Shown here piece by piece: positions 2,393 to 57,556 of a DNA stretch of 64,000 nt. The first letter of the stretch is position 1. Each line of letters opens with the position of its first letter. The notes under the pieces were generated by a model. That model worked only from the letters and a program-made list of their open reading frames with translations, searched no databases and was not told where the DNA came from. Source of the DNA: Chytridium lagenaria (Eukaryota > Chytridiomycota > Chytridiomycetes > Chytridiales > Chytridiaceae); assembly GCA_025449115.1 (NCBI GenBank), contig JAHLKC010000046.1:186001-250000 (forward strand), given 5' to 3'. The position numbers were made by a program, and so were the translations under genes.

Positions 2393-2739
2393 TAGGGATG
2401 TCGACATTGATACTCTTTTCAAAACATCTTTTCGGTGAAAAATGGTTATAGTGAAGTGCCCCTTATCGCGAGATCTAGAGTTTTTTTCCAATGTGTATAA
2501 TTCAGCTGCATAAATACATGTCTCGTTTTCCAAAATTTGAGTAATGGATATTGATCAAACGTATCATGCGTCTGTTCTTTTCATTACAAAACAATAATGT
2601 GCGTTTCTGTTCTTTTCATTACAAAACAATAACGTACGTTTTCTTTGAAGCGTTAAAAATTCTAGTTCCGTCCTATCACAGCTTATTAACATCTCTTTCC
2701 AAGCTTTGGCTTTAAACCTTGTGAGTTTTTTATTTAGAA
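2393..2739. repeat. diverged direct duplication, copy B, running into the KICS2 stop codon
   Basis: This is the second copy of the unit at 1964-2260. It lies downstream of KICS2, which is on the minus strand, and its right end covers the KICS2 stop codon (2734-2736). The duplicated unit is therefore essentially the KICS2 3' flank or 3' UTR. Copy B is longer than copy A because it carries an internal 35-bp tandem repeat. Confidence 0.85.
2571..2640. repeat. 35-bp tandem repeat, two units, inside copy B
   Basis: Units 2571-2605 and 2606-2640 are nearly identical. Each begins TCTGTTCTTTTCATTAC and they differ at a few bases near the end (ATGTGCGTT against ACGTACGTT). Copy A has a single equivalent unit. 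Confidence 0.9.
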
Positions 2740-5540
2740 GCAAGCTGTTGCCGATGTGGCCACCCCCAAGCACGCCCCTAACCTCATCAAAAACTCCACG
2801 GTTCCACCATCTACTCCAACGAAGCCAGAAGGCCCTCCTCCTGGTAGAGGCGATGTGGTCATTCCATTTAACGATGCACCACCTGTAGTTCCACCACCGC
2901 TCGTTACTGACGACGGGTTTATCCCACTTGCTGCATTTACAGCTAGCGACGTCGATGAAGACGATAATGACGATATATTTGCAGCTGTCGCCGTCCCTCC
3001 CGCAGACACCCCACCTTTCTTCCCCTTGTTACAATCGTAACAACTGTTACAGGGTCGACCCTTGAAAGAGTATAAGTTGTATCCACTTTGCTGTCATAAA
3101 ATTGCACCGTCCTCGACGTGACCCATGCAGGCGTAAAGCATGCTGGTTCGACTCTTCCTTCTTTTCTCACTTTCGTCGACGTGATAATAGATGTCTTCCT
3201 CGTCATATCCTGATTCTTCTCCCTCCTTCCAAACAAAAACAGCTTTCCCAGCATTCCCGTCATAGTCATCCCGCTTCCAGTCGTCATAGTCGAACCTATC
3301 GAGGACGTTACAGATGGAGACGGGGATGGAGCCCTCGCTGCTGCAACCACGCTATCATCTTCAACCTCAATGCCTTCTCTATCGGACATAGATGAACCCG
3401 GTCTAGCCGTTCTTGACGCTCTGGATGTTGATGATAACACTGACGCGCGTCGTGACACAGTTACAGAGGGCGGATTGGTATTCCTGGACTCTTCGACCCC
3501 ATCATAACGATTCGAAAATGACGGTGCGAGGAGATTTGATGATTGGAGAATAGATATAACGTTCGGCCAATGTTCCATGGGTGCTGGCTGTTATTTTAAC
3601 GATTTTTTTTTATCAGTAAGATTGTAAAAAGCACAATAACGCTAAATCGGCTTACATTAGGGAAGCTGTAAATGGCCGGAAACGAATGAATTCCGTGAGG
3701 TGCTTCGTATGCCGATCTTCCCGCACATTGGAACCCATTCGGGAAAAAATAGAACGGGTCCCCCGAAGGTGAGGATTCAGGGATAAGATACACGAGAGAC
3801 ACTGTCGAAGTTTTGTTTTGATGAGCATAGGTAGAAATTCTTTTGCCAACCGAATGGGAATAAAGGTCACGTAATATTAGTATGGTTGAAATTCGCGTGA
3901 TAGAAGTTAACGGGTATGCACTTACAACGACAAAGCATCAACCCCACTTAAACCTCCATCACCTCCACTTCCAATAGCAAGACTTTTAGAGAAGAACATC
4001 CCCACCTTTCCAGAAACCGCACCCAAAAACCCCGTCAGCCATGCCCTCAGCAAACCCCCAATGGCGACCGTGACTTGCGCAGAAGAAATGACAGGAGTTC
4101 CTGCTGGTGATGCGGTAGCAGAAGTTGACGAATGAAGGGGCGTTGATGGAGCAATTCCTGTTGTTGAATTGTGAGATAATACAGAGGTTGGGGTGTCAGG
4201 CCGTTTTTGGAGAAGCGCTGAGGGTGTGGATGATGCGTGGTGCTGGGTTGGTGTTGGTGTTGGCGTCATGTTGCGATGGTGGGAGGGAGGAGTTGTGGTG
4301 ATGGATGGATATGTGCTGGTAGAAAGTGGAGAGAAAACTGATTCGGGCGGAAGGGATGGCGCTGGACTCTGGATTTCAGTCAAAACACCGTTTAAAGATA
4401 ACTCAAAAAGAAAGATAGGAGTTAACATATAAAATCTTTTAATACCTTTGAAAAGCCATTAAACATGATTTTGCTTTATACAGACTTAGGCAGGCCTCCG
4501 TGAGATTATATCGATTGGCTGCGGCATCCGCCTCAAAGATGCTTTGCAAGATAGTCACCTCTGAGCTAATGTGATAAGAAAGTCCTGAGTAAATACAGCT
4601 TCCCTAAAACACCCTGCAACTGTATGTTCCCACCTGAGTACATCCACCAGCGCTCCTAATGGAGCTAAGTTCTCGAGATCTTGATAGATTTCTTTAAGCG
4701 TTGACAGTAATGTCTCGCTGTCAAGTATACAAGGCTGTGAAAGCAAATAGTATCTAAAATAACGATGATAAGAAAGACGCACGATGAAGTAAACATCAGC
4801 ATGACTGCAAGCCATCGATGAAACCCAACAAATTGACCAGCATAAAGGAAGAGATAGAAGGAAATATAACCTACAACTCTATAAGCTTCACCCTCACCCT
4901 ACACAGTTCTATCAAAGCTCCTAACATCTCAACCATCGCCCTTCTACTCTCATCCTCCATTCTCTCCTCTTCACCTCCTACAATCCCTGAAAGTATCTTT
5001 CCCGCCCACTCCCCAACGCTGCATACCCATCCCCTAAAAACCCCTGTCGATCCAATCTTGGCGGTCCCTTCCTCCCTGTTCCTGTCGGCGACATGGAAGA
5101 TATGGACGATACCCTGAATAAAAAGTCCCCATCACGGGATGGCGTACTGCGTTGCTTGAAGTTGAATTGGAGGGACGCGTGACGGTGTTCAAGTAGGGAG
5201 AGGAGACGGAGGCTTTGAAGGACCTCGGATTGGGAGCTGGTGAGAGGGGTCAAGGACACGCAAACTTTGGAAGGAGTGAGGGAGGGTGATGGCTGTTTTA
5301 AAAGGTTGTGTGTAAGTTTAATATTAACGCAATATGATGCTGAAACAGAACCTTTGTAGATGCAAATATATTAGTTGTTGCCGTGGACGATCCAGCACCT
5401 CCAACGGACGAAGTTCCAAACAATTTAAGCCCATCATTTGTTGCTTGGGGATCGCGTGCTCGGAGCGCAAGCTCGGCCAAACCATCACGAAGAAGTGAAA
5501 TGAATCCAGGTTTATCCTCTTCTTCGATGGCCACCACCAT
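2734..5540 (-). CDS. KICS2: KICSTOR subunit KICS2 (C12orf66 family)
   Basis: KICS2 is a scaffold subunit of KICSTOR, which in animals holds GATOR1 at the lysosome and restrains TORC1 when amino acids are scarce. An N-terminal helical region comes first. The helix with EVTILQSIFEADAAANRYNL (about 4480-4570) matches the family helix with EVDVLCHLLKAQAQVSEW. The C-terminal domain follows, with YEAPHGIHSFPAIYSFPN, then MEHWPNVISIL (about 3550-3580), then TVQFYDSKVDTTYTLSR (about 3070-3120). These parallel YREAPKGVDQYPAVVS, MHWPNVIMIM and VVHFYDDKVQSTYFLTR of the animal protein. Fungus-specific Ser/Thr/Pro-rich insertions sit at about 4130-4370 and 3280-3500, and a Gly/Ser-rich tail ends at 2734. 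Introns lie at about 5290-5360, 4800-4870, 4390-4440, 3880-3920 and 3590-3650. One-base frameshifts are needed near 5130, 4565 and 3030. The start at 5540 follows in-frame stops; a missed upstream exon is possible. Confidence 0.88.
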
Positions 5541-10993: not shown

Positions 10994-13900
10994 ATGACTC
11001 CCTCGCCTTCCACCGATGCGGTCGTCGCTCCATCCACTCCGACCAGAAAGCCCATCAGCTCGGTGAAGACCGTCACCACACCCTCGGCTTCCCCTGCTAG
11101 AACTGCTGCTAAATCCACTACGGCTGCCTCTCCCGCCACCAGGACTTCAACCGTTGCCGCCAAAAAGCCTGCAGCCCCCTCATCTACAGCCTCCGCCAAA
11201 CCTCCCACCGGCTCCGCAACAAAAACCGTTACCTCAACTGTTGTTAAGAAGACTGCCGCGCCGGGGAGGCTCCTTCAACTGCTGCTGCTAAAACGGTCGT
11301 CAGGAAACCCGCTACCACCACCTCTACTACCTCGTCGTCGTCAACTGCTACAAAGACCCCAGTCACCAAGACTGCTGTTAAACCGTCCCAGACTACCACC
11401 CCCCCGTCTTCTGTCGCGTCTTCTCCGGCCAGGGCTGCTAGGAGTGTCCCGTCATCCGCTGCTAATGGAGTTGTCAAGACTGTGTCATCCACTACGGCAA
11501 AGACCCCGCTTTCCCCTCGGCTGACCAAAGTCGCGTCTTCTACTCCTTCAGCCGACGCCGAGGCCGTTAAGGCTCTTCAGGCTCGCATTGTTGAGCTTGA
11601 ATGCCTTTTAAAAGAGAAGAAGGATCCTGAGGTTGTCGCTGAAGCTGGAGAAAAGGCTGGGGAGAAGTCTGAAGAGGTGAGTTGATATTTAAGGAAAAAA
11701 TGAAATAGAAGTTTCTAATATGATGTTTTGTAATTAAAGGCTTCTGCTTTGGAGACAACCATTGCGGCGCGTGTTGAAGAAATCAAGGTCCTCCAGGGAC
11801 AGATGGATACTCTTGTTCGGGCGCAGAACTTGTATGAGGAGGAGAAGAAGCGCCTTGAGGATAGCAAGTCTGAGATTGAAGGACGTTTGAGCGCTGTGAT
11901 TCAGGATAAGGAGCAAACGATAGAGTCTTTGAGGCAGCAAATTGAGACCCAGGTGAGCCCTTTTTCCTTCCCTTTTTTGAACCTGGCTCGTGGCTTGTTT
12001 TCCGCCACCAGCAAACCATGGAACGAGGGCGTGGTTTTCCTTTTGTCCTACACCAATAATTTCTTCCCTATTTTTCAAAATTTACTGGTGGTTGGAATAT
12101 TGATCCCTTTTTTCTCTACTTAGGTCTTGGGTCTTCACTCTGAGGTGCAAAAATCAAAGGACCTTCTCAAACAAACGGTCGAAGAAGCTGCCGCAGAAAA
12201 GGAAGCACTTCAAGCAAAGCTCGACGCTCAGATCGCCGAAATCGCTGACCGCGTTTCCTCCATCACAACCCTTAAGACGGAGATTGAACAACTCCGCTCC
12301 CATCAGTACCTCGAATCCGACCTCACCTCCACGCGTCAACTCCTCATCGTCCGCGAATCTGATCTCGCGACCGCCGTTGCAAACCATGGATCCGCTCTTG
12401 CTGCTCGTGACGAGGAGCTTCATTTTGCCCAGGACGCTTTATCGTCTGCCCGACAAAAGATTTTGGCGCTTGAGGAGGAGATTCATGTGAAGAGTGAAGC
12501 GCTTCTAGGGGTCAAAGAGGAACTTGATGTGGCGATTAATACGCCTGCTCAGGCCGTTGTTGACCCTGCAATTGCGGAGAGGGAGGGGGCTCTTCATAAT
12601 GAGGTTACGCAACTCAAGCAAGACTTGGATGAGCTTAAGGCTCTTCGTGAGGCAGAGAAGACAAAATCAGTGGGGAGATTGATGCGCTAAAGTCTCAGGT
12701 AATTTTAATTTTTACAAAATTATGTTCTGACCTAATTTCAGGTGACCGCAGCCATCGATGTTCGCGACTCTGTGGTTGCCGAGATGCAGAAACTCAGCGC
12801 TTCCGCCACCACCTCCAACAGCGCCACCGACGAAGCCAACGAAGCGCGCGATCGTGCCCTCGACGAAGTCCAAAGTCTCGAAAAAGACCTCGCCGCATTT
12901 AAAGACATCGCTACAGCCGAACGCGAAGCCGCGGTGGCAGAAGTCATTGCTCAACTTGACGCTTTAAAGGCCGAGCTTGCAACCACCCAGGAAAAGGCCA
13001 CATGCCTTGAGCAAGATGTTGAGCGTTTGACGGCTGAGCTTGCTCTTGAACGGGATCGTGCTGCAACAGTCCCAGAACTTGAGGCCAAGATTGTGGAACT
13101 TAAGAGTGAGCTGGAGGATGTTAAGGGGAGGTTAGAGGCTTCGGAGGCTGCTGCTGCTGAGGCGAAGGCGGTTGCTGAATCGAAGGATGAAGTTGTGGCG
13201 GCTATCAGATCATCGCTTTCAGCGTCTGAGACCTCGTATGAAGAGAAGGTGGCTGAAGTGGAGGAACTTGAGAAACAGTTGAGTGAACTCAAGTCGGAGA
13301 TCGCGAACGCTCGTGAGGGTTCGTCGTCTGATGAGGCTGCTTCTCTTAGAGCTGCTCTTGAGGAAGCCGATGAACGTGTCGCTGTCGCTGTGTCATCCAT
13401 CAAGGAAGCCTCTGCACTTGAAATTGCGGCTGCTAAGGAATCCGTTGAGGCCGTCAAGGCTGAGTATGAGGCTTTGGTAGCAGGCCTTAAGGAGGAGATT
13501 GCAGCTGCTGAAGCTAATGTTCAGGTTGCGGTTGATGCTGCTGTGAATGTGGTCAAGGAGACCGAGGTTGCTGCTTTGAAGGCTGAGGCTGAGACGGCGA
13601 GCGCTGAAGTTTTTGCGCTCAAGGAAACTATCGAGTCTGTTGAGGCTTCGGTGCAGGAGAAGGTGGAGGCGGCTGTAGCGGCTGTCAAGGAGGCGCATGA
13701 GGCGGAGGTTTGCAGACTCAAGGAAGAGCTTGAGGTGGCCACTGCTACCGTGGCAACTTCTAGCGAGGTTGTGGATAATGAGGAGGTGGAGCAACTCAAG
13801 GCTGAGGTTGCTGCTCTCAAGGCTACTCTTGTCGCCGTCGAGTCCTCTACCGAACAAAAGATTGCTGAAGCAGTTGCATCTGCCACGACTTCGTCTGACG

Positions 13901-15038
13901 CGGCCGACGAGAACGCCGTTCTAAAAGAAACCATTTCTAATCTTGAGACACAGCTTCAAGCTTCCGAGCTTGCCACGTCATCTCTCAAGGCGCAACTTGA
14001 GGCGGCTCTTGCATCCTCTGTGCCAAGATCACTTAGCACTGTGCCTGAACTTCCCGAAGAGGAGGAGTCGGAAGACGCCGAGGAGATTGATACAGTTGAG
14101 ACGTTAAGGGTTAGGCTAGATGCGACTAAGGAGGCGCTTCGGAGGGCGGATAGGAGGGCGGAAGCAAAGGCTGCTGCTATGATGGAGGAGACCCTTGAAC
14201 AGTACAGAGCTAGGGAGGAGATGTCTGGGCATTTGATGGAGGAGGCTCGAGCTAGAATTGTGAGTCTTGAGAATCGCATCAACAGAGTTGAACGCTGTCG
14301 AGGCCGAGGAGGCAGTTGTTGTTACGGCTGAAGCTACCGCGACGCGTGTTGCGGAGCTTGAGGAAGAGCTTGAGCGTCTCCGTGGCGATTTAGGGGAAGC
14401 TGTATCTAAGCTTGATGTGACCTCTGATGAGAATGCGGAGGCCCAGACGCACATTGAGGCATTGAGGGAGTCGCTTGCTTGTATGACTGAGGAGGTTGAG
14501 GAATTGAGGGCGACTTTGATGGCTTATGAGGAGGGTGTTGAGGAGAGTGAGGTTGAGAGGTTGAGGAGGGAGTTGGAAGAGGCGAGGGCGGAGAGTGAGG
14601 CGCTGGCAACGGAAAATGAGGAGATGGGCAAGTACTTGGAAGCGTTGAAGATCGTGGAGGCGGAGGAGAGTGCGGCGTTGAATGAGAGTGAGTGTTGATT
14701 TTTTTATTGATTTTTTGTTTTGAGTAGTATTTCTTACCTAGCTTTTTTCCGTAATGGTTTACTTATATTTCTTGAATTGTTTTTTTAGAAACCCCTGCCC
14801 AAAGGGCCTTTGTTCTTCGCATGAAGATGCAAAAGTTTATGAGCGAGCCCGATGAGGTCCCCACCGGTGACGTTGGAGAAGAAGCCGTTGAGGATGTTCC
14901 CGCCGACGAAGTTTGCGACGACGAAGCTGAAGTTAGCGAAGAGCTTGTAGACCCTGAGAACCAGGTTCGTCTTCCCTTACTCCTACCCCGCCTGCTTCTA
15001 ACCCTTGCTTCCAATAGGTTGCTGTTGCCGCCGAGTAG
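10994..15038 (+). CDS. long Ala/Glu-rich coiled-coil protein with basic Pro/Ser/Thr head
   Basis: I do not recognise a named family. The spliced product is about 1,200 aa. The first ~190 residues are Ser/Thr/Pro/Ala/Lys-rich and basic, a composition typical of disordered microtubule- or nucleic-acid-binding regions. From about 11555 onwards the protein is almost continuous heptad-like helix, with blocks such as VEEIKVLQGQMDTLVRAQ and ETQLQASELATSSLKAQLEA. The short tail is acidic and ends DPENQVAVAAE. Exons are about 10994-11675, 11739-11951, 12124-12699, 12742-14691, 14789-14964 and 15019-15038, all at GT-AG sites. One-base frameshifts near 11262, 12668 and 14283 must be corrected. Long stretches are also open on the opposite strand because of the biased codon content; these are shadows. 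Golgin, spindle-pole or cytoskeletal roles are all possible. Confidence 0.75.
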
Positions 15039-41130: not shown

Positions 41131-42879
41131 ATGTCAAAGACAAAGGTGTCCACCATCCCCGCTGTCCAGAAGCTTCAGTCCGTACTTGCAAGAGGTTCAG
41201 TGCGCGAGCTTAAGGGCCATAAAGATAAGGTAACTGACCTGTGGCATGCATCATTAGCTTTGTCCACTCCATCCATACGTACTTTTTAGTTATGCCAGTC
41301 AATCGCCACTTCAAGTTGCTTACGCCTTCTTCCATGAATCATTTATAGGTGCATAGTGTGGGATGGAGTTGTGACGGTAATCGGTTGGCATCAGGGTCGG
41401 TTGATAAGACTGCAAGAGTGTACAATCTGGACAGACTGGTAAGGCGAGCCATTCGTTTCTTTCTTACTTCCTCTCTATCCTTGTCATTGCTTGCATCCTT
41501 ATCCTTCCTCAATATAACTTTTTGCCGTAAAAAAAAAAGGGAACCAAGGAAGTTATCGAATTAAAGGGCCACCAAGGCGATGTGGATCAACTGGAATGGG
41601 ATCCCACAGATGCTGAACGGTTAGCAACTGCAAGTGTCGACAAAAACTGTTAGATTATGGATGTGAGGTCGCCGCTGAAAGCTCGTCACGTTATTCAAAC
41701 GCCTGGGGAAAACATCAATATCTCTTGGAGTCCAGATGGCAGATGCATTGCTGGGAATAAGGTGACTTTTCTTACTCCGTATAACTTTATTTGTGTATGC
41801 TGATATTGTTGCTGAGAAAAGGAGGATGTTATTACCTTTATCGATCCTCGAGGCGGTACCGAGAGCAGAAGTACTGGTAAAAAAGGCTACATATGGCATA
41901 CTATGAAGAATGACGTAGAGGTGCCTATTATAATACAATTCCCGCCTTTCCTTCTATCATAACACTGATTTTATTTGCTAAATCTCTGTGCAAGGTTAAC
42001 GAAATTCGCTGGAACTTCGCTGGAGACCTTTTTTCTTACAACTGGCCAAGGTCTGATAGAATTTATTTATCATAAAATCTTTGTGAGATATTTTTGTTTG
42101 GTTTGCTCACAAAGATTTCAAGGCACTATCCAAATCTACGAATACCCTGCGTTGAACCTTGTCCACACCATTCAAGCGCATACCGCGAATTGCTACTGTA
42201 TAGAGTTTGACTCGAAAGGAAGGTAATTAATAATTGCTCCCAGTGCCCTATTGTTTTCGGTTAGATGCTTTCTAAATTTGGACTACTTTCTACTTTATGT
42301 AGATATTTTGCCACGGGAAGTTCAGACTCGATTGTAAGTTTATGGGATCTGGAGGAGCTTGTATGTGTACGAACATTGGAAGATTGGAGTAAGTAAAAAT
42401 TACTCTTTATCTGGTCGCGTCTCCTTTTTTGTTTTGTTTTTTCTTCATCCATCATATTCATTTGCAAAGTCTGAACCTTCACGTTTATTGCCTCTCGTTC
42501 ATAGTTGGCCAGTTAGAACGATTAGCTTGAGCTTCGACGGGAGCTTATTGCGTCTGGATCTGAAGATCATCTCATTGATATTGTAAGTGTGTCTTTTTCT
42601 GTTCTCTGGGATCTTTCGTTTGAACGATAGGACAATATCTTATAATTCTTCAGTCTCATGTCGACAGCGGTGAGCATGTTCACACGATCAAATGCTCTGC
42701 TGCCACAAAACAGTCGCGTGGCATCCTACACGGTTTTTGCTCGCATACGCTGGAGATGAACAGTCCGCGCGTGGAGCTGAGGGTAATCTCAGTAGACGTG
42801 TAGCATAAATAGTAGAGTTGTTTTTCTTTGGCAGGAGCAGTTTATATCAACTCTTTTTTATAGGATTTTTGGGTTATGA
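41131..42879 (+). CDS. THOC3: THO complex subunit 3 (THOC3 / TEX1), WD40 protein
   Basis: THOC3 is the WD-repeat subunit of THO/TREX, which couples transcription and splicing to mRNA export. The start MSKTKVSTIPAVQKL leads to VRELKGHKDKVHSVGWSCDG, then LASGSVDKTARVYNLDRL, IELKGHQGDVDQLEWDP, HVIQTPGENINISWSPDG, AHTANCYCIEFDSKGRYF, ATGSSDSIVSLWDLEELVCV, WPVRTISLSFDGSL and GSEDHLIDI. These match the seven-blade propeller in order. The tail ends near RIFGL, like the LFGL end of the animal protein, with the stop at 42877-42879. Introns interrupt most blades. One-base errors break the frame near 41646 and 41660 (an extra A and a missing G in the DKTVRLWDVR motif) and near 42550 and 42700. Length is about 320 aa. 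Confidence 0.93.
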
Positions 42880-43513
42880 CATGAGGTTAGCCTTTCAACC
42901 ATTTGTCATATCTTTTTCAATGATTTATGTGTTTTTCGAAGTCGAATAAAAATACCTACAAGAGTCACAGCTAATGTACCTATATTTGTACACTATATTT
43001 ATGGAATTGTCAATTTTGAATTATTGACTGTCACACAGGATGGAGAGAGTTCAAATTGAGTGAAAGTAACATTTGTAACGGCCTTTTCCAAACACCATCG
43101 GCCTCTAGTATGACCTTGCCAGCGACCCATGACGGACACATTATCAGCTAGTGTCGCTCTCAATGTCATCAGGAGACTGGAATAACTGCAAATGGACGTA
43201 TATGGGACGACGGATGTATGCGTGGGTCTGGGATGGGGAGTTGATGCAACGATGGGATGCGATGAATCAGATGGGATGACTGTGAGGAGAACTTGCACAA
43301 GAGATTGCACCCCGTCAGGAATGCAAAATATGGAGGAAGGGTTTTAGGAACGACCCATACAGCAAAGACGACAACGTCGAGTACCTTACCCACGAACGAA
43401 TCGCTCTCCACTTTCTTCTGCAGCTTCAATGTCGTCTCTAGCCTTAAGTTAACGCACTTGTCTTTTTCATTCATATCAGCTGTGCTTCACAGTTCCGCCG
43501 AGCTCTTCTGAAA
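42880..43513. other. intergenic region upstream of uS2
   Basis: These 634 bp hold the THOC3 3' flank and the promoter and leader of the uS2 gene. The last 100 bp before the ATG are C/T-rich, as is usual upstream of ribosomal protein genes. Short open frames here are not supported. Confidence 0.4.
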
Positions 43514-44515
43514 ATGTCAAAGTGTCCTGCCGTTTTGGCCCCTACTGAGAACGACATCCAGTTGCTCTTGGCTGCTCAGGTGAGATTGCGTTGTATTCTT
43601 TTGCGGGTCTTCATCCTTTTGGCAGGAGCTAAAACTGACTATCACTCTTTTCCAATTACGCATTCGTGATGTTAGGTTCACCTGGGCACCAAGAACTTGG
43701 ATGTCGGCATGGCCCCCTACGTCTGGAAGCGTCGCAACGACGGTATCCACGTCATCAACATGGCAAGACCTGGGAGAAGATTGTCTTCGCGGCCCGTATC
43801 ATCGCTGCCATCGAGAACCCCGCCGATGTTTGTGTGATCTCTGCCCGTCCCTACGGTCAGCGTGCCGCCCTCAAGTTCGCCCAGTACACTGGAGCTCAGG
43901 CCATTGCCGGACGTTTCACCCCCGGTACTTTCACCAACTACATCACCCGCTCCTTTCCGTGAGCCCAGGTTGATCATCGTTACCGACCCCCGCACGGACC
44001 ACCAGCCCGTCAAGGAGGCCTCGTACGTCAACATTCCGGTCATCGCCTTCGCCGACACCGACTCGCCCCTCAAGTACATCGATGTTGCCATCCCCGGTAA
44101 CAACAAGGGCAAGCACGCCATCGGTCTTGGCTACTGGCTCTTGGCCCGTGAGGTCCTCCGTCTCCGTGGTACCATTCCCCGTACCACCCCCTGGAGCGTT
44201 ATGACTGACATGTTCTTCTACCGTGACCCCGATGAGGCGGAGAAGGAGGCCGAGACCGCTGCTGCGGAGAAGGCTGCTGAGTGGTGGTGCCACCGGAGAC
44301 CACCGCTGCTCTTGAGGTGAGCTTCTTTCTCATGCTTTTTTTTTTCTGTTTTCCCAGATAACCTGTTTCACAATACTTAATTACATTTCTTTTCAGTGGG
44401 ACGCTGCTGCTGCCACTACTGGTGCCGCCGAGACTGGCGAGTGGGGTGCTGCCGAGACTGGAGAGTGGGGAGCTGAGCCCACTGAGCTGCTACTACCAGC
44501 GGCTGGGACGCTTAA
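43514..44515 (+). CDS. RPSA: 40S ribosomal protein uS2 (RPSA / Rps0)
   Basis: uS2 sits on the back of the small ribosomal subunit and is needed for late 40S maturation. Exon 1 encodes [20 protein letters not shown]. After an intron (43580-43675) comes [20 protein letters not shown] and then [60 protein letters not shown] and [21 protein letters not shown] second intron (44316-44397) precedes a tail with two ETGEWGA repeats and the usual end AATTSGWDA, stop 44513-44515. Length is about 290 aa. Four single-base errors interrupt the frame near 43760, 43954, 44281 and 44494. Since the protein is essential and otherwise perfectly conserved, these are almost certainly sequence errors. Codon use is strongly C-ending, as for a highly expressed gene. 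Confidence 0.97.
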
Positions 44516-45594
44516 AGGAGCGTTTTAGGAGGATGCTTGAATTTCCTCTTTTTTTTCGTTTCCTCCGGGAGGTGGTTGGGATGTTTGGGGTTGTTTTTGC
44601 AGTTAGAACGCTCCCTCTATTCTCTGGCACACCCTTTTTTCTTTAAGAAAATATAAAAAGAGAATTGATAAAAAGATGCTGCGGTGCATTTTTTTCTAGG
44701 GATACTTATCTATAGATTTCTGCATGTCCATTTCTGCATGTCCAGTTGATGTCGGAACTGAAAAGCGAAAGTCTCGAGGGAATAGAAGCCAGGTATACAT
44801 TTAAATTGAGATTGTGACTTTGCATAATGGGCCTGAATAAGCCATATCGTAGTTTTGCATTTAGCATTAAATGACACAAAAGAACTGATTGCAAGGAAAT
44901 AGAAAATGATGTTAAGTTAAAAAAAGTCATTTTCATATTACGAATATACCTACATTACTTTATCTTTATATTATGCAAGTAAGGCTTACTTAGTTAGATG
45001 TAAAGTAGATAATCATGACTAGGTCCGTACAAAAATAAAAAAAATGTTCCTCCAGTAACACGTTTGTAATATCGCTAAGCTCAATATATCATAGACGTGT
45101 GATGGACTGACCGTACAATATACCACCTATTCACAGTATTACCAGACATTAAACCCTCACACACATACACGCGCAGAAAAATGAGCCATGACAGCATTAA
45201 CGCACTGTCATTTTATTGTTCTCGTCAAGTTTTTTATTTGTAATTCACTCTACAAATCTACCTTTATCGTTGTCATCAAGGAATAACAAAGGGAGAGAGA
45301 CAGAGAGTCAGAGAGAGAGACTTCATTATAACAAATTTCTATTTTTCATGAAAATAACAGGGGAAGGAAAAAGTGTGGTAGGCAGAAAAAAGGCCTCACC
45401 GTCAGGTATCTGCAACATTTAATTTTGTCAACCAAAAAAACAAAAGGAAAAAATAAAGAAGAAAGAAGAAGAAACGAAGCAAAAAAAGTATGATCAAGAA
45501 GGCAAGGGTACGGGGGAAGTTTTTAGAGACGGTCAAAAAATCTGAATACAAGAGAAGAAACAAAGAGGTGAGCCAAAAAAATAATACGCTCGCT
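44516..45594. other. convergent intergenic region, uS2 / USP10
   Basis: This is 1.1 kb of AT-rich 3' flank between converging genes, with a GA-rich run (about 45292-45322). No gene or RNA was recognised. Confidence 0.4.
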
Positions 45595-47783
45595 TCAGAT
45601 TCGGGCATAGAACAACATGTAGGCCTGGCGCTCTGGTTCATCCGCCACAACATTTTGAATGGATATCGGCGTAATTGACGCGTCGTCCATGTATAGCCAG
45701 GTGTCGTCGTTTTGGGCGACATCACAGGTGTAATGTCCTGCCTCGAGGTGCTTGCCGTGGTGATTGACGACTACGAATTGTTGAGATATAATCAGCCAAC
45801 ATATTTAGAATGATACTATATCGAATTTTTTTTTAAAAAAAACTAACTTACCAGCAAAAAGTCGGTATTCAAGGTTGCGTGAACGGAGTTGTGAACTGGC
45901 CGACGATAATTCTAGTGCGAGATATGAGTTAAAATTTCAAAGTTCGGAAGCTGATATTCAATACAAACCTGGCCGAATTTTCAAGATAGGGGAGAAGGCG
46001 ACGTGTTTCCGGATCTTTTGAGATCCGCCGGCAACGTCAAACACGAAACGTTTCATATGCATAATTAAGATAGGAGGAAGGTGATCGAACAGATTTTGCT
46101 TGGTGACTTCTGCATTTAAGTGCTTGGTTGGGTCATATTGACAAGGGCATCCTCAATGGTATGAATATTGTCCGGCTGAAATAATATCGGTCAATACATA
46201 TTCAGCTTCCAAGGTACTCACAGCAATATCTAACTGAAGGGAAACAAAAGGTTCTAGCATGGCAGAGTCTTTACTGCCATGCCGTTTTATGTTCGACCTC
46301 ACGCGGCCACCAAAAATTTGGGTGATGGGAGACTCAAGGATCTCGGTCTGCAATAATGACAGTCAGGATAGTAGATAAAAGCGGGAAAACACAGTCTGAT
46401 TTCTTTTATAAAGAGTGGATTTCTGCTCTACTCTGCTCTACACTCACCTTCCTTGTGACTGCCGTTCTGTTTTTTGGTCCAACTTCTAACCAGGTACCAC
46501 CACCGTTCATCACCCCAACGTTTTTACCCATTTGGTAAGATTCGCCATGTTGAACTGTAAAAACTATCAGAATATCCCAGCCTTTCCCCTTCTTACTTGC
46601 TAACAATTCCTCGTGGAGCCCGTCCAATAAAAATCCCAAAAACTCCTCAGCGTCCTCTTGTCTTCCCTACAAAGTCTAAGCAAAAATTATTGCAGGTGAT
46701 TTTGGATTCACCTTGACCGAGTCAACTCCCTTAAGCGATCTGAGAGCTTCGTAAACATTTTCGGGCTCAAACGCACTATCTGCAGAGACTAAGAATAGGA
46801 TTAATTATAAAAACATTAAATAGCAAAGCTTTAAGAAACTTGTGTAAAACGACACATACATGTAGTATCCGACATTTTTCCGTCAGCGGATAACTCGGTG
46901 AACTGAAGAAGAAAATCGATCCTGAAAAAAGGTGATTATAAATTAGCATCATAAGAATACCAATATATCAAAGTTACTCACATTGCGTCAACTAAAGGCG
47001 TTTTGATCTTCAAGTTATGAGCAACTTCCTCCCTAAGTTTCCTGAACAGGTTTACGAAAGGGGCGCAATGAACCAATGGCTGTAACAAAGCGTTCATAAA
47101 GCACATGTTTCCATTATTTACAAGCCCTCTAGGTTGAACAGGCCGTCCGCGGAAGTTTACAGAGAAGTCCTTGAAAAACTCTGCGGATCCATCAGTTAAA
47201 ATAAAATCTCAACTCCAGCATTTTAATTACTTTGAGTCCCAGACTGTGGAGGCTTCTTAGCGAGGACGGACGGGGCAGCTGCGGTGGCGGGGGTGGATGA
47301 GGGTGGATTATTCTTTTTGACGAGGTCAGCCCAAGATTTGGGGGGTTCTGGTTTAAGTGGTGGTGGCGGTTTTGGAGTAGAGTCCAGCTCCTGTTTCTTT
47401 TCCACTGCAGGACTTAGCTCACTCAGAGCAGCTGAATGTCCATTCACATTTGGCAGTATATGAGCTAAGGTATGTCCGTTCGATGTAGCGGGGGATATGC
47501 CATTTGTTTTGGGAGGTATGAACTTCGATGAGGAAATGGCGGGTTCCGTAGGGATAAGTGGGGCCACCTTGACAGTGAATTCTGAAGACCACTTTGCGTT
47601 CTGTTTCCATCCGATTCCATCGTAAGTTTGAAGAGACGTTAATCCAGAAAACTAAACAAAGATTGGGTCGAGACCAAGACGAACCTTCGGGAACAGTCTT
47701 GTGACCTTGCTTAAATCCACAACAGCCTCCACATCCGACCTCTTGAAGTCCCCAAAGACCACACCCATAAGCGGGTCCATCAT
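45595..47783 (-). CDS. USP10: ubiquitin-specific protease USP10 / UBP3
   Basis: This is a cysteine deubiquitinase; family members act with G3BP/Bre5 in stress granules, ribophagy and vesicle traffic. The N-terminal region is Pro/Ser-rich and holds PKSWADLVKKNNPPSS (about 47310-47345), equivalent to the PKSWASLF element of USP10. The catalytic Cys box follows the family form: VQPRGLVNNGNMCFMNALLQ (about 47060-47140). GRQEDAEEFLGFLLDGLHEE gives the QQD-like box, and GTWLEVGPKNRTAVTRKV and ITQIFGGRVRSNIKRHGSKD are typical of the clade. The catalytic His region is HLEAGHYTCDVAQNDDTWLY (about 45700-45750), and the end is ERQAYMLFYARI, stop 45595. The N-terminal exons joined by a 33-bp intron at about 47652-47684 are less certain. 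The start at 47783 is the first Met of MMDPLMGVV, and earlier in-frame sequence exists. Confidence 0.93.
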
Positions 47784-48515
47784 GAAGCTATATTCGAGCA
47801 GGAACGAAGATGTTCCAACAGTATCGCCTCGTTGACAGAGAGGGCGAGATGGAAAAAAAAAAAGAATTTGAGGACGATTGGGATGGGATTGACTTGGCCT
47901 CAAGGCAATCAAATCCAACGAAAATGGAATCCTATACGCTTCTCAATAGAAGATGAAAACGCTTTGGAGAGCGCCGGAAGCTCCAGTCTCACAGTTCCTG
48001 CTGATCGGACAGGACGGGATTCTGAGATAAAGGAAAGTGTAAGGATTTACCAAAGAAAGTGGACGGCTGCAACATTTGCGGTGGGAGGACTCGGATTGGG
48101 GAACAATGGACTGGGTGCTGGTCCCTATCCTACCTTTTCTGGATCGTGCATGCCTGCCTTATGCATGCATCAGTAATAAAGATTAATAAAGATTGTTCGC
48201 ATCCTCCCCGTTTGCCTGCAACTACTCTACTGAGCCTTCTATGACCACCATGCAGACGAAGAGCCCCGTTATAATTGGTTTGTACTTGCGAGAGGCGTGA
48301 TGCTTAGAAAAACTGTTGCGAAAGCTTGTTGTTTACTGGAATATACGTCGGATAATGTAGAGAGACCGGATTGACCGTCGAGTGTTGAGACATCACCATG
48401 TTCTACCTTGGAGAGTCCACGTCGAATGATCTCGGAATCCGCACTCCGCCTCGCTAATAATGTGAAGCCCGCATCTAGAGGAGGCCCGTAACAAGATGAT
48501 CGGCGAGGTTTGAAC
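47784..48515. promoter_or_regulatory. divergent intergenic region, USP10 / CFAP210
   Basis: These 730 bp should contain both promoters and perhaps a missing 5' exon of CFAP210. Short open frames on both strands show no recognisable sequence. Confidence 0.35.
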
Positions 48516-50346
48516 ATGCTAGTCAATGCTACTTTAACGCATCCCAATAGAAACAAAAGCTTCACGCCCAAATCTATGGAGAGTGTTAAGGCTTGGACTA
48601 ACACGATTATGGGCCAACGAAAAAAACGACTTGCGGCTCGTGAGAACAGCTGCGGTTGATGGAGGTAAAAAACAGCGGGGCGACGAAGAAGTTAATTGCT
48701 CTACAGGAAGAACGCCAGAGAATTGATACGGAGTGGACTCAGATTCGCAATGCTGAACGCGAAGACGCCGTTACCCGTGCACGAATGATGCAGTACGTGG
48801 AAACGTCTCGTGTTCGGCAACTACATGCTCGTCTTCTCATGTCCAATGTTCTATTTGTAAGCTTCAAATACCTTATAACAATAACGCAATATTTAGGAAC
48901 GAGAATGCCAAAAAAAGTACAAGGATGAAGTCAAAGCCGCTGAAAAGGCTGCTGAGGAACAGGAGCGTGCGAGAATCGCTAAAATTGCGAATGGCGGATG
49001 ACGAAGAGCTCGTATTGTGGGAAAAGCATCGACGCGGTAAGGCACTTGTGGCTGCAGATTTGAGGAGGGTGATGGAGGAGAAAATACAGCTACAGAAAAC
49101 TGGATAGGGAGGCATGTTGACTTAAAAGACTCGGTATTGACCTGAGCTTAGGCGGAAAAGCGTCAGCAGAGTATTGTGGACAGACAGGTTGCTATCGAGA
49201 TTAAGGAGGAGGTTTCAGAGGAAGAAGGAGGAGAAGGCACGAAAGATTGTGGAGATGCGTCAAGGATTAGAGGATGTTTTGAAATCAAAGAAGGTAACAT
49301 ACTCACCATGGATATGTATAAATTTATTGGTTTTAAGGAGGACTATGTACTTAGCAAGGACCAACAACGTGCGCTCGACAAGAGCAATGAGAAATTTAAT
49401 GGTATGAAGGCGTACATTGCAAAACGAAAAAAGGAGATTGAAGGAAGCAGAGCAGAGTACGAAAGTTTTTTAAGGTCTTAAAGTAACGTCTTTTTTACAG
49501 CCAAGTGGGTCAAATCTGTCAGCAAGTTGCGGCAGTAAACGAAGAATTAACTCGGGAACGAGACGAAAAGCTGCAGAAATTCATTGAGGCAATGGGTCAA
49601 GCGCCGTTTGGAGATTCTGAAAAGAGAAAAGCTTGATAAAATTAGACGAAAGGCTGCAGCCGATGATATTGAAGCGTTTAGGCGTCAAAAGGTGATGCAA
49701 TTTCTTTAGTTGCAATTCCACTTTGCGAAGCTGACTTGTTTTAAAAATCAATAGCTTCGAGAAAACGACAACGACATGTTAAGGAAGAAGAGAGATGGTG
49801 AGGCGGAACGACGGGAGGGAGAAGAACTGTTGGCGAAGTCTATTGAAGAAGAAAAAACGGCGACGTGACAAAGCTCAAGCTGAACGTCAAGCACTAAAGG
49901 CCTTCCACATGATTCAAATGGTTTGGCTCATTTAAAACAGATTAAATATTGACACCGTGCATAAGAATGAGGTTCGTAACAAAGTGCACGAAAGATTTGA
50001 AGAGAATAAACTTCTCAACCGTGCTGTTTTAGATAATGTAAGATCAATAATTCTAACATATTCTCTTCACGCAAACGACTTAACACAATTTCTGCACAAT
50101 GATCCTTTTTGTTAACAGCTTAACGCCGACAACGAACGTTTTCATAGTTATGCCATGGAAGCCGTTTGCGAGTTTCAACAGCAAGGCAAGAACGTCACCC
50201 CCATCCTACGCGGTCTCCGTCAAAATCGTCCTTTCCCCAAAGTCTTATACGAAGAAAAAGACACATTCAACCGTCTCGGATTTACCGTTCGTCACGTACC
50301 AGCTGAAGCTCCTGAAGTTTCTCGTCTTCTCAAACGCGGGATTTGA
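48516..50346 (+). CDS. CFAP210: CFAP210 (CCDC173), ciliary doublet-microtubule inner protein
   Basis: CFAP210 is a long helical protein lying inside the doublet microtubules of motile cilia. Family blocks are present in order: MESVKAWTNTIMGQRKKRLA (about 48573-48632), then the signature RMMQYVETSRVRQLHARLLM and VLFERECQKKYKDEVKAAEK, close to the animal QYYQTERVKNFHSALLLTEV and VLKERDAQ. Charged TPH-type helix continues with DEELVLWEKHRRGKALVAAD, IRRKAAADDIEAFRRQK and RQALKAFHMIQM. The last exon carries LNADNERFHSYAMEAVCEFQ and QGKNVTPILRG and stops at 50346. Introns include 48857-48897, 49294-49360, about 49690-49755, 49918-49970 and 50038-50120. One-base errors are frequent (48640, 48990, 49110, 49230, 49610, 49855). 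The first ATG used here (48516) is uncertain. Length is about 450 aa. The ENY2 ATG is 52 bp downstream. Confidence 0.82.
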
Positions 50347-50398
50347 TCTTCTATTCCATTCCCCTCTGTAGAATTCGTAGTACAAAATAAATTCCATA

Positions 50399-50887
50399 AT
50401 GAGCCCAGCAAGAAACAGCAGAGGGATTTGATAGACCAGAAACTGGTGGCGGAGCGGGAGAAGGACAAGTAAAATAATATTACGAAGACCCTACGCTGAC
50501 GCTTGCTTGATTTTGGATCACAGGCAGAAGGAATTTCTACGGACAAAACTTACAAGAGAGCGGATGGGGATGACATGAAGAAGGCATGCAAGGGTGAGGA
50601 GATTGAACATGTTCCGAAGTATCTCCTAAATGGTAATTCTCTATTACAGAGATAGTCAAGGCAAAAGGGATGGAGCAGATCACTGTTGAGGAATTGATAG
50701 CTGAAATTGGACCCAAAGCAAGAAGTGTGTCATGAATAATCCGTCACCCCTTTTATTAAGTTATTCTTCGTAAACAAACAACTTCGGGTATCGACCTCTA
50801 ACTGTACCCCTCTGCACAGACGCGGTTCCTGAAGATATTAAAGCCGAGCTCCTCCAACGCATCCGGAAAGCCATCTCCGACCCATGA
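50399..50887 (+). CDS. ENY2: ENY2 / SUS1, subunit of SAGA deubiquitinase module and TREX-2
   Basis: ENY2 is a roughly 100-aa helical hairpin protein that works in both the SAGA histone-H2B deubiquitinase module and the TREX-2 mRNA-export complex. Exon 1 (50399-50468) encodes KKQQRDLIDQKLVAEREKD. A 55-bp intron leads to KEFLRTKLTESGW and DDMKKACK (50524-50596). After an intron (about 50597-50650) comes EIVKAKGMEQITVEELIAEI and GPKAR. The last exon is AVPEDIKAELLQRIRKAISD, stop 50885-50887. Every segment aligns with the animal protein. One-base errors lie near 50412 (just after the ATG) and 50553. It follows CFAP210 by only 52 bp. Confidence 0.95.
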
Positions 50888-50950
50888 CCTCAATTCAACG
50901 GTTCAATCTGTACAATATACATCCTGGTTTTTTTTGATGGATTGTCCCAC

Positions 50951-51945
50951 ATGTCAAAGCGAGTGAATGGATGGACTTGGCCTCCCCATTATCGCCAGCT
51001 CATCATCATCATATACGTTCTGTGCTCTCTGGTGTACTTTATCCTAATCCCATGGAGGATCGGCGTGCAATCATCTACCATAGCCCATGCTCTTTTCGGC
51101 ATTTGGAAGATATCATCATTTTGGGGGATAACCATCACAGGCCTTACTCTGATGTCATCTAACCCTGCGGATCCAGCTGTCGTCAGCTCCCAACATAATA
51201 TTCATCCAGAAACATCCAAAGCAGATATGGATGCTGAATCCAGGTTCTGCACTGTCTGCCTCACATACGTGTAAGTTTCTTCCAGTTTTGTCTTCAACGC
51301 TAAACAGCCTCAACAAAAGCCATCACACGTCCCTCCACTGCCGTTATTGCAACAAGTGTGTTTTGAATATCGATCATCACTGTTTCTTCGTAAACAACTG
51401 TATAGGAAAGAGAAATTACAGGTTCGTGGCGTTCGTCTTCGTAGTTTTATTGACTGCATGAACCTTAAGGTTGTTTGTTGCCACTCTGTTGTTCATGGCA
51501 AATTACGCGCTAGGAAATCTTATGTTTACGATTTGGGCGCTGGCATGGCCGTACGTGGATAGCTTACGGATGGACTCAATCGGTCAGTTGCGTGTACTTA
51601 TTTAGAGTATTGATTTTCGCTCAGTTAAAAATTATGGCCTCGCTCCGTGGCGACTGCAAACGCTCACTGGTTTCTTCGCGCTTTTGCACCTCCTATTTGT
51701 CTGCTTTACGTTCGACCTGCTTCGCCTACATGTCCTTCTTTGTAAGCAAAAAACGCGAGAATATCGCGGCTAACGACTTGTCAGGGTACAAAGGCATGAC
51801 GACTCTTCAGTACGCAAAATTCCTCAGAAAACAAGAAGAAAACGGCGGAAGCACCTGCTCCGCAACGTGCTTTATTCGACTCAAATCAATACAAGGAAGG
51901 CAGTCGGAGCAGAGAGTCAGTCCAAACAACTTTGAACGAAAATGA
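50951..51945 (+). CDS. DHHC-type protein S-acyltransferase
   Basis: These membrane enzymes attach palmitate to cysteines of target proteins. Two N-terminal helices ([20 protein letters not shown] and [14 protein letters not shown]) are followed by NPADPAVV, a motif placed as in the ZDHHC1/11 group. The Cys-rich domain is split by an intron (51271-51310): [10 protein letters not shown], then [16 protein letters not shown], with the catalytic DHHC motif, and [13 protein letters not shown]. Further helices are [16 protein letters not shown] and, after another intron, [23 protein letters not shown] just after the last helix corresponds to the TTxE motif. One-base errors lie near 51462 and 51745. 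The C-terminal end (stop 51945) is the least certain part. It converges on YPT1 with only 71 bp between. Confidence 0.88.
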
Positions 51946-52016
51946 TTTATTGAAACAAATGGGCAGAGATGGGTTGATAGTAAGGGAACGACTTCTGGAA
52001 AATGAGGTTTTTTTCT

Positions 52017-52952
<936 letters not shown>

Positions 52953-53251
52953 GGTGATGGTGGTTGGAGTCTGTTGAGCTGAAAGTTCGCCACTGAATTT
53001 TTTCTCTTTCGAAAATCTTGATTCTCTTTGGAGGCAGGTTGAATGGGAACAAATTTTCATTTGTTGGGTGGTATGTTTCTTCTGCTTTGCTGACGTAGCG
53101 GCTTCAACGTCCGTGTTGAGGAAAGTTGCTAACAATCGGAAGGGATTGAATGCTCAAAATGCGCATGGTTGAAAAAAATGATAGTCAGGAACTGGTCGGT
53201 GATGCGGCTGATGATGAGTATGCTGTTGTTTATTATTTATAAAAAAAACGA

Positions 53252-54019
53252 TCACGTAGGCACAAGAGAGGGGTCTGCTTCCACCATCTGCAGAAAACTG
53301 GTTTTTTCTGTTTTAAAAGTGCGTAAGTACTTAAAACCACAAGAACAAAATAAATGTTTGTGGACTCACTTGGCTTTGGTTTTAATGCACTTGTTGCTTC
53401 CGCGACACCCTTTTGTTCCGCCGCAATCGCATTAAATAACTTCACCACTAAGAGCATGTCAACAATCAATGCAAATACAAAAACCGAATCAGTATAAACA
53501 AAATCCTGACCTCCTCGTGTAGATATCTTCCTTAATCTCTTTTCTAAGTCATTTGTCAGGACTTCCGGCTTGACTCTACAGGAATTCTTCTTTTGCTGTG
53601 TCTCAAGCTTCATCAACTGCTTCGCTTTGATTTCGAGCTTCGAATCATCCAATTTCATTTCGATACCCCTGCTCTGGGCCAGGATGGGCTGTTAAGGTAA
53701 TATTTCAGTTAGTTGAATGCATCGAATGCGAAATCTGGTAATAAAGGAAAACAACTAGATACGTATAGCACAAGATGATGATCATCATTCTATTAGAAAG
53801 TAAAGTCTCATAGAATGAAAGAAGGCCTAATAGGCTGTGGAATACGTCAACATCAACCATTTTTATCATTACCTTTGACTTCTTTCCCTTTAATTCTCTT
53901 GTAAGCAGCCTTGACATCACTGATGCCATTTTTCCTCCTTCCACAACCACAGCTGAGTCCGCCTGCTGTTGCTGCCCCTGTTCCTGCATCTCCACATCTT
54001 CATGTCCGTCGTCGCTCAT
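53252..54019 (-). CDS. RRP15: ribosome biogenesis protein RRP15
   Basis: RRP15 is a nucleolar factor of pre-60S particles. The acidic, Gln-rich start MSDDGHEDVEMQEQGQQQQ leads to VMSRLLTRELKGKKSK. After an intron comes PILAQSRGIEMKLDDSKLEI and then SCRVKPEVLTNDLEKRLRKI and STRG. After another intron VVKLFNAIAAEQKGVAEATS appears, matching the family TRGVVQLFNAV block. The last exon gives KKTSFLQMVEADPSLVPT, equivalent to KKDFISVLRG, with the stop at 53252. At about 160 aa it is shorter than the animal form but close to the conserved domain. An in-frame ATG at 54079 would add 20 residues. Confidence 0.92.
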
Positions 54020-54190
54020 ATTCGATTGATTGTAGAAAGCAAAAAAAGAAGTGTCAGAATTGTCGAAATCATATTGCATGCATTGTCAGGAAAAGAGGAT
54101 GGAAAGCAGCATAGAACTCAAGAATTTACAGTCCAAGTTCATTTAAATTTGACATGATATAAAAATATAAAGTGACGAGCGAGCAAAATA

Positions 54191-56396
54191 TCAACGGTCC
54201 ATCGCAGAGTTTTCCAGTGGAGGAATCCCCCTATTCCTATTAATCGCATCCGAGAGAAGAATCTCCAGCCTCACTGCGCTGGCCACATTCACCTCCTCCA
54301 TCACAGGGATGCATCGTCGCAAGATATATTCATAAAGCTTGAATGCCTGCGCCTGATAATCATTTGTAAACTGATATCCAGCAATCTATTGAAGACGCAC
54401 CCAAAGATGTTAATTTAACTGGAATCACATATTGTATAAGCTAGTAAACAAGTACAGAATCCAAAACTCACTTCAAAAAAGCTATGCAGGACCATGGCCG
54501 TGACCGGTGTCGGCTTTTGCGAAATAATACGTGCAACCCATTGCCATCCAAAATCCATTCCGATCACGTTTTTCGCTATTTTTTACCAATGCCAGAAGAA
54601 CAATTCAGCAAGATATATAGAGCCCAGCCAAGTTACTCACCTTGCTGCATCTGCACAATAGCAGCAAAAATTGCGACCAATCCACACATTCTTTCGTTAT
54701 ATTTGTCCTCATTCTCACGAATCCCTTCCCCATCTTTTTTCATCCCCAGTCTCTTCAAATACTCATCAAGGGATTCCGACTAAAAGGAAACAAGAAAGAT
54801 GAAGTCAGTAAAAGAAAGCCATTAAAAAAATTAAAGATAAATATTTCTCACCGGACGCATCTTAGGATGGCGGGGAATCAAGTATGGGCATTTCTTCATA
54901 AGTCTTCCAAATAAAATCATCATAAACTTTGGGTGACTTTCGTAAATCAAAATAGACACGAGCGCAAGCGGAAACGCTTTGGTTCTTTGTACAGCAGCCT
55001 CGGTTTCGGCTTGTTTCTAAACAACCTGATAAATAAGGGCAAGACATTCGTTTTAACAATACTAACACAAATCGATTTCCCTAACGCGTCCATCAACATC
55101 AACCACATAACTTCGGATACTTGCTTCCCTGCTTTTAAAGCTTCATCAATCGACTTTGCCTAAATGTATTAGCTAGGGTGCGTAAAGATCCCGTACAGTT
55201 GCCATAATCTTAGATCTACTATTGGTAAGCTGCCCAACACTTTTTGTCAATCGCATGCGATGCTTCATAAAAAAATTGCCCATCGCTGGGTCTCCAGAGA
55301 ACCTTGGTCGAATTTCTTCCTTAATCATCTAGGGGCTATTAAACTACAAGCAGTAAAGATATATATTACATGAATACTGTCGAGACAAGATTCGGCAAAT
55401 CCTTTAGCGGCGCTTTTACCACTTGCAGCAGAGTTTTGAGCTGCAGGCTAAAACACAAAATAAATAAATAAGTAAATAAGTAAGCGTTAATTTAAAGAAA
55501 AATTCAACGTAGTCAAAATGCGCAAGAGTAAAAAGTAGCATTTATAAATGAAGGAAAGAAGTTGAAAATGGGCAGGAATCTATCAAAGTCATACCATTGG
55601 CGCTACGCTACTTGAAGAAGCAGGAATCGCGGAAGATCTCGTAGCGTTACTTAAAGAAGCAGCAACCGCGGAAGATCTCGTAGCGCTGCTGGCTTGTCCA
55701 TTTATTCTTACAGGTACTGACGCGGCGACTGAAGGTGGTAGTTTTGATGGAGGTAGTATATTCTGTGGTGCCACTGGAGCCACACTTCCTGATGTTTTAA
55801 CTTTCCAATGCAATCAGAAAAAGCTTTTGAAACAAGATATTACCTGCTGGAGGCGGTGGCAATGGCTCTGGTTCCGGTACAATGGCAGCTATTCGCATAG
55901 CTTCAATCAAACTCTCCATAGCCTACAAAAAAATAAAGCGTTAGCTAGTAAAGCGAATGTTCTAAAAACATGCCTGCATCATTTGCGAATTCCTTCCCTC
56001 GAATTCTTTGCGCATCGACGATAGTGCATTCTTTCTTTAACGGGGGTCCAATTAGCCCAGCAAATGCCAGAATGCCTCACCTTTGTTCCGTCGTCCGAAG
56101 CACCTGTTGTATTCCCGTTGCCCCCTCTTCAGCCTGCACAATTTCAACGCTGGGTATCTTATACATTGTTATCGGTTCGGACATGAGCTGGGACGTTAGC
56201 AAGGTGTTTGTCATGGAACTACCATCTTATTATGCGGGGAGGCGAATTTGGCGGGTGATGTTCTACGATGGGTCGTCGCTCTGACGGCTGCAACGAATGC
56301 TTCTCGGCCTATGATGGATGTGTCGGTCTTTTTTGTAGGGGTAGGCCGTGGTTTGGGTTGCGGTGGGGGTTCCTCATCGTTTATATCAAACTTCAT
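54191..56396 (-). CDS. GLE1: nucleoporin-associated mRNA export factor GLE1
   Basis: GLE1 binds inositol hexakisphosphate and activates the DEAD-box helicase Dbp5 at the cytoplasmic face of the nuclear pore. The N-terminal part (56396-55900) is Pro-rich and polar, with a short helix LSSMRKEFEGRNSQMMQ. An Ala/Ser-rich linker follows (about 55800-55600). The HEAT-like C-terminal domain has LTKSVGQLTNSRSKIMATVA, ALGKSICVSIVK, TKAFPLARVYFDLRKSPKVY, MCGLVAIFAAIVQM and, in the last exon, YEYILRRCIPVMEEVNVASA, all in GLE1 order. It stops at 54191. The central coiled coil of animal GLE1 is short or missing. One-base errors lie near 56060, 55830, 55700 and 55020. The ATG lies 88 bp below the NDUFB9 stop, on the same strand. 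Confidence 0.88.
55611..55688 (-). repeat. 39-bp tandem repeat in the GLE1 linker
   Basis: Units 55611-55649 and 55650-55688 are nearly identical. Each adds 13 in-frame residues of the form SSATRSSA to the Ala/Ser-rich linker. Confidence 0.85.
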
Positions 56397-56484
56397 GGCC
56401 AAATTCCAATATTATTGGAAATTGGAAGTGAAACAAGTTAAAATGCGCAATGACGATGATAATGATTTATTGGGGAATATTGAT

Positions 56485-57065
56485 TTAAGAAGAGTTGTCG
56501 AAGGGGGTGAGACCTCCGTAGACGATCTGGAATATGATGGTAATTGAAATGAGTAAGAAAAAAGTCGAGGTTAACTGGTAATTTAAGGCTGGAAGAAATG
56601 ATAATTCCCAAAAGGTTTTGAATAAAAAATATCAAAAAATATGTATATAACACACACCTCCTCCGGGACCGGAATGTTCCTCTCCCATTTCGAACCACCA
56701 GGAGCAGTGGGAGCTACAAATTGCAAAAAAAGGGTTAAATCCCCACCATACTTTCATAGACTTACAGATATAGGGTTGCGGGTGATAGTACTTTGCCAAC
56801 AAGTGTTCAGTCTTCAAAATCAAGTTATCAATCTCCTGCGGGTTCGTCACATTCTTCCGCGCCTCAAACATCTCTCGAATCATGACGGCCTTCTCTCTGT
56901 ACTCTTCTCTTTGCCAAAACCAATCCTGAGTTAGCTTAAGGGATTGCCGATAGAGACGGCGGATCCTTTGACTGTGAGAAAGGGGCTCTATCTGCGGGAA
57001 CGAGTCAGTGGGAATGGGTGGTAGATAGATGATGGGTTTACCGGCAAACGAGGCACGAAGGACAT
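56485..57065 (-). CDS. NDUFB9: complex I subunit NDUFB9 (B22, LYR family)
   Basis: This is an accessory subunit of the mitochondrial NADH dehydrogenase membrane arm; it is a LYR-motif protein that binds the acyl-carrier protein. The short first exon encodes MSFVPRLP. Then comes LSHSQRIRRLYRQSLKLTQD with the LYR motif, WFWQREEYREKAVMIREMFE and LAKYYHPQPYI, the family hallmark. A third exon gives PTAPGGSKWERNIPVPEE and a last short exon IVYGGLTPFDNSS, stop 56485. At about 110 aa it is short, as in other fungi. It shows that the organism keeps respiratory complex I. Confidence 0.92.
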
Positions 57066-57556
57066 GGTGATGGTTTTTTCACCTCAAATTTTTTTGGCTT
57101 TTTTTGATGGGTGTTGAGGTATTGAGTGATCGAGAAGGTTGCAAGGGGAATGCGATGGGTTCGAATATAGTTATTTGAGCAATGCAAATGAACCCTGACT
57201 ATATCCCGGGTGTCTTTGGAAGGCGATTTTTTTGACGGTGTCGGAGGAATGATATGAATAAAAGGAAAATGAAGATATTACTGTATTCATCTTTTACATT
57301 AATGTATTTACATTGGCTGACGGCGGTAATGTGTAAACATTGAGGTATTGAGAGAGCGACTTTTACATGCGCATATGCTTTCCAATCTCCTGTTCTCAAG
57401 CTTCAAAATTCGAGACTGATGGGTGGATAATGTAAGAATTATTTGCAAGTCTTATATGACCAAACTTTATTTGTACATCACATTCCATGAGGCTCTTTTC
57501 CTTCAATTCGACTTACAAGTGTGCGAAGAGCTACCCTTTAACATAACAGGCGGACG
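57066..57556. promoter_or_regulatory. divergent intergenic region, NDUFB9 / HAUS4-like
   Basis: These 491 bp lie between divergent starts. T-rich tracts are present and no further gene was seen. Confidence 0.4.

Follow-up and report, generated by a model that had tools for sequence, protein, structure and literature searches.

Evidence for a KICS2 orthologue alongside SZT2 and GATOR1 genes in a flagellated fungus

Results and discussion

KICS2 (C12orf66) is part of a protein scaffold that stops animal cell growth under nutrient shortage. Profile and structure-database searches support the view that a minus-strand gene, running from 5540 to 2734 in the DNA analysed here, is the KICS2 orthologue of a flagellated fungus, and the same genome also encodes SZT2 and all three subunits of GATOR1. 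The DNA concerned (referred to as the window) is a stretch of 64,000 nucleotides covering positions 186001-250000 of contig C46, in an assembly of 41.9 Mb divided over 356 contigs. The finding adds an example, at the level of a genome, of KICS2, SZT2 and GATOR1 co-occurring in a fungus that carries flagellar genes. Given this co-occurrence, yeast is a poor guide to the ancestral control of TORC1.

Structure of the gene

The first-pass annotation, made from the letters of the window, had placed a KICS2 gene at 2734..5540 without naming a strand, and this agrees with a start codon at 5540 and a stop codon that ends at 2734. We divide the gene into at least six exons. In window coordinates the features are:

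2734..5540, minus strand: KICS2 (C12orf66) gene; start codon at 5540, stop codon at 2736-2734; matched by PF09404 and by the best PDB chains
5352..5540, minus strand: exon 1; open from its ATG, the following GT-AG intron (5351-5293) keeping the frame
4875..5292, minus strand: exon 2 (or two exons); frame change near 5119, with five donor-like intron candidates
4446..4753, minus strand: exon 3; frame change near 4581, with zero donor-like intron candidates
3926..4366, minus strand: exon 4; Ser/Thr/Pro-rich insert, followed by a segment (24 residues) that aligns with human KICS2
3656..3839, minus strand: exon 5; conserved block ending in EAPHGIHSFPAIYSFPN
2734..3587, minus strand: exon 6 (or two exons); MEHWPNVISIL, then an insert of 146 residues, then FYDSKVDTTYTLSR

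Five GT-AG introns preserve the reading frame (5351-5293, 4874-4754, 4445-4367, 3925-3840 and 3655-3588). They measure 59-121 nt, and the donor of the first one (GTTCTG) is weak. Across four exon pieces, 440 codons are open. The conserved blocks appear in the order typical of KICS2, as had been claimed: the piece with EAPHGIHSFPAIYSFPN (3838-3656) precedes a single open piece on the same strand (3587-3030) that holds both MEHWPNVISIL and FYDSKVDTTYTLSR. Past the frame change near 3031, exon 6 continues with a Gly/Ser-rich segment and the C-terminus.

Some other elements of the window can be mentioned here. Two stretches, at 2200-2262 and 2680-2740, look similar by eye (aacatctcttt...taaaccttgtg...ttaga); the second overlaps the stop codon of KICS2, and the interval between the two contains a short tandem repeat. 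A TRM13 tRNA methyltransferase is encoded at 61138-61971 on the plus strand (E 5.4e-51). On the same strand, the open reading frame at 12736-14331 encodes 531 residues that are rich in Ala and Glu and appear coiled-coil-like; its Pfam matches are all below cut-off.

Homology to KICS2

The exon pieces were joined into one piecewise protein query, in which an X marks each joint and all bases are left as they stand. Some 11 of its residues, where the exon-4 piece begins, are intronic in the later splice model. With this query the Pfam family PF09404 (C12orf66_like/KICS2) yields 55.2 bits (E 6.5e-15) against a cut-off of 22, and the sole other Pfam match, Med13_C (E 0.012), stays under its own cut-off. 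Single exon pieces do not reach the PF09404 cut-off of 22: piece 3587-3030 scores 20.5 bits, a second piece 12.7 bits, and piece 4871-5131 taken alone gives no match.

The structure database points to the same family. The three best PDB chains (2gnx, 25gf_D and 9o5a_F, E 3.8e-7 to 1.2e-6) are all human KICS2, the entry 2gnx having been deposited as a hypothetical protein and identified as human KICS2. The matches that come next are unrelated, namely an antibody chain (E 0.16) and ALAS2 (E 0.79). The identity proposed in the first-pass annotation is thereby borne out by both types of search. A direct comparison of human KICS2 with the piecewise protein (phmmer) gives E 1.2e-9, whereas the best of 500 shuffled sequences reaches E 3. 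The alignment is collinear along the protein with peaks at EAPHGIHSFPAIYSFPN, MEHWPNVISIL and FYDSKVDTTYTLSR; its N-terminal half is weak.

Searching genomic DNA is far less sensitive. When PF09404 is run against the whole 41.9 Mb assembly and matches up to E 10 are allowed, a single place is returned, which is the gene itself at E 0.09; at the default threshold the same search gives no match, although the gene is present. In a large protein database, with residues 60-770 as the query, no relative was found among 7,999 scored candidates.

The long Ser/Thr/Pro insertions reported from the first inspection are real features of the translation. Together Ser, Thr and Pro account for 54% of residues 1-110 of the exon-4 piece (some 11 of which are intronic in the final model) and 36% of the 146 residues ahead of VQFYDS. 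The 75 residues past the last frame change consist for 36% of Ser, Thr and Pro and for 23% of Gly. In a pairwise alignment the insertions are located mostly opposite gaps in human KICS2.

Frame changes and assembly quality

Apart from the five introns, the gene contains three frame changes, near 5119, 4581 and 3031. Judged by eye, no intron seemed to explain them, but a systematic scan for GT-AG pairs of 50-130 nt, in which donor-like starts were counted separately, did not confirm this judgement: in-frame pairs are found at all three positions (35, 16 and 43, respectively), and 5, 0 and 4 of them have a donor-like start. Extra introns are therefore possible at the first and third changes on the basis of these splice signals. 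Most likely the three frame changes are either assembly indel errors or unrecognised introns.

It might be argued instead that the gene is a decaying pseudogene, the remnant of an ancestral KICSTOR, as three frame changes fall outside the five introns and the one at 4581 has no donor-like intron candidate. We regard this as highly improbable. All five introns are preserved, as are the conserved blocks, an open stretch of 440 codons spans four exon pieces, introns might account for two of the three changes, and SZT2 is retained in the genome. Moreover, similar defects are seen elsewhere in the assembly. Within the window, a Ras-family gene with a Pfam match (52952-52020, minus strand), which we take to be Rab1/Ypt1, changes frame twice between adjoining conserved pieces, and at neither change is there space for an intron. 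The assembly thus carries indels in conserved genes. Also, two near-identical stretches on contigs C112 and C184, which are either separate alleles or uncorrected copies, differ much by indels: over 3,193 aligned positions they share 96.6% identity, with 28 mismatches against 35 gap openings. The frame changes in KICS2 therefore do not require a pseudogene, and we continue to treat the gene as a KICS2 orthologue, most likely interrupted by assembly errors or additional introns.

Origin of the contig

A flagellated fungus had been suggested as the host, and genes in the window and in the remainder of the assembly agree with this. The open reading frame at 24515-23928 (minus strand) corresponds to the N-terminus of IFT172 (PDB match E 1.3e-42), a match that fits a flagellated organism. 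The Chitin_synth_1 family, which marks fungi, has eight matches on four contigs. Directly adjoining KICS2 there is a metacaspase gene (7156-6863, minus strand) that is closest to Metacaspase-1 structures; animals are not known to have metacaspases. By eye the open reading frame at 6882-6262 (minus strand) continues this metacaspase, and it gives no Pfam match.

Because of IFT172, the chitin synthases and the neighbouring metacaspase, it is very unlikely that the contig comes from an animal contaminant of a fungal assembly. The KICS2 gene itself argues in the same direction, as its introns are short and its sequence is distant from that of human. The idea could draw on the literature: Wolfson et al. 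(2017) reportedly described KICSTOR as restricted to vertebrates and absent from fungi, as cited in passages of a later survey (PMC11836306).

Partner proteins in the same genome

Of the partners that the first-pass annotation proposed to look for, four are encoded in the assembly: SZT2, NPRL2, NPRL3 and Iml1/DEPDC5. For the other two, KPTN and ITFG2, there is no match, in searches that are weak. The SZT2 locus is:

contig C14, about 46508-57763: SZT2; match with human SZT2 and with PDB SZT2 chains

Residues 232-325 of human SZT2 match C14:47513-47806 with 28% identity (E 4.7e-5), and an open reading frame of 458 residues at this locus finds SZT2 chains only in the PDB, with a best E of 1.5e-8. 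A piecewise query composed of 8 of the 12 open reading frames (the last one shortened) again finds SZT2 chains only, and the E value for the whole decreases to 1.2e-13. HMMER places five collinear stretches on this query; two of them are significant alone (18.0 and 24.6 bits), while the remaining three score 3.4, -0.5 and -3.7 bits. The GATOR1 subunits are found more readily, all above cut-off: NPRL2 at E 6.3e-45, Iml1/DEPDC5 at E 5.2e-37 and NPRL3 at E 8.2e-26. The suggestion that KICS2 could act with none of its partners is consequently unsupported, since SZT2 and the three GATOR1 subunits co-occur with it in one genome.

Upstream of SZT2 on the same contig, at 42012-45274 (plus strand), open reading frames resemble, by eye, a periplasmic-binding-like domain and, after it, a class C-type seven-helix receptor.

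KPTN was searched for with the human protein and one motif pattern, and ITFG2 with PF15907 and the human protein; neither gives a match in the assembly, at a sensitivity so low that the absence of the two genes is not proven, because the KICS2 profile itself only reaches E 0.09 on its own gene. FG-GAP-like sequences at six loci, spread over three contigs, were considered as KPTN or ITFG2 but are not convincing; their best alignment with the human proteins has E 0.10 over 20 residues.

Proposed mechanism

Taking the human system as a guide, we think it probable that the KICS2 orthologue pairs with the SZT2 encoded on C14 and helps to hold GATOR1 on the vacuole, keeping TORC1 off when amino acids are scarce. 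The SZT2-KICS2 pair would help to tether GATOR1 (Iml1/DEPDC5, NPRL2 and NPRL3) at the vacuolar membrane, and the tethered complex would then switch off RagA/Gtr1 and TORC1 under amino-acid scarcity. What the genome shows of this mechanism, at the level of sequence comparison, is the orthology of KICS2, the presence of SZT2 and the full set of GATOR1 subunits.

A tentative variant is that SZT2 and KICS2 tether GATOR1 as a reduced scaffold of these two proteins alone, without KPTN and ITFG2. Both proteins are encoded in the genome, and KPTN and ITFG2 are matched neither by the human proteins nor by the ITFG2 profile or the KPTN motif pattern, nor are the six FG-GAP loci on three contigs convincing for either of them. 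Published precedents exist as well. Passages of a recent survey describe Chytridiomycota, among other phyla, as lacking KICSTOR components, and Mortierellomycota as having a three-protein KICSTOR (three of the four components) (PMC11836306). Caenorhabditis elegans is given elsewhere as having SZT2 alone (PMC8534245). Nonetheless, a KPTN or ITFG2 gene that is split by introns and ridden with indels could escape searches that were confined to this assembly and hardly recover the KICS2 gene. We find it doubtful that KICSTOR is here reduced to SZT2 and KICS2 through loss of the KPTN-ITFG2 pair, with the Ser/Thr/Pro inserts of KICS2 carrying regulation. If true, SZT2-KICS2 would be the working core of the complex, and the KPTN-ITFG2 module would be dispensable. 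A fungus in which SZT2 and KICS2 are present, but possibly not KPTN-ITFG2, would in that respect be a natural experiment on what is essential in KICSTOR. The pairing of KICS2 with SZT2 in support of GATOR1 is the reading that we prefer.

Comparison with known systems

The presence of KICS2 in this genome fits an origin before animals and a loss in the yeast models. The first-pass annotation had proposed that this layer of TORC1 control is older than animals and was lost in most fungi; its main inference is right, with the yeast models as the losses that our observation fits, but it is not new, because KICSTOR homologues in fungi outside the Dikarya, including early-diverging lineages, were already published in 2025 (PMC11836306). 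In the accessible passages of that study, Barua, Plecha and Muszewska survey 183 proteomes and report KICSTOR homologues across Mucoromycota, Entomophthoromycota and Neocallimastigomycota, with a scattered occurrence in other early-diverging fungi; SZT2 is named in two chytrids and the KICS2-SZT2 pair is tabulated (PMC11836306). Literature searches over titles and abstract openings gave no account of KICS2 in fungi beyond this paper. Mammalian KICSTOR anchors GATOR1 at the lysosome, the contact being made by SZT2, and KICSTOR was earlier viewed as mammalian-specific, according to excerpts of a separate article (PMC8534245). The excerpted text of a 2026 preprint repeats that Drosophila does not have KICSTOR (PMC13370336).

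Compared with the fungal KICSTOR of that survey, our genome is similar in having KICS2 and SZT2 homologues, and incomplete complexes are described there for some phyla; a difference is that its text passages give SZT2, and not KICS2, for the named chytrids (PMC11836306). The closest structural reference is human KICS2 (2gnx, 25gf and 9o5a), with which the fungal protein shares the Pfam family, the order of the conserved blocks and the HWPNVI and FYD-KV--TY-L-R motifs. The two differ in size: human KICS2 has 445 residues against about 800 in the pieces from the window, and the fungal protein contains large insertions, both Ser/Thr/Pro-rich and Gly/Ser-rich.
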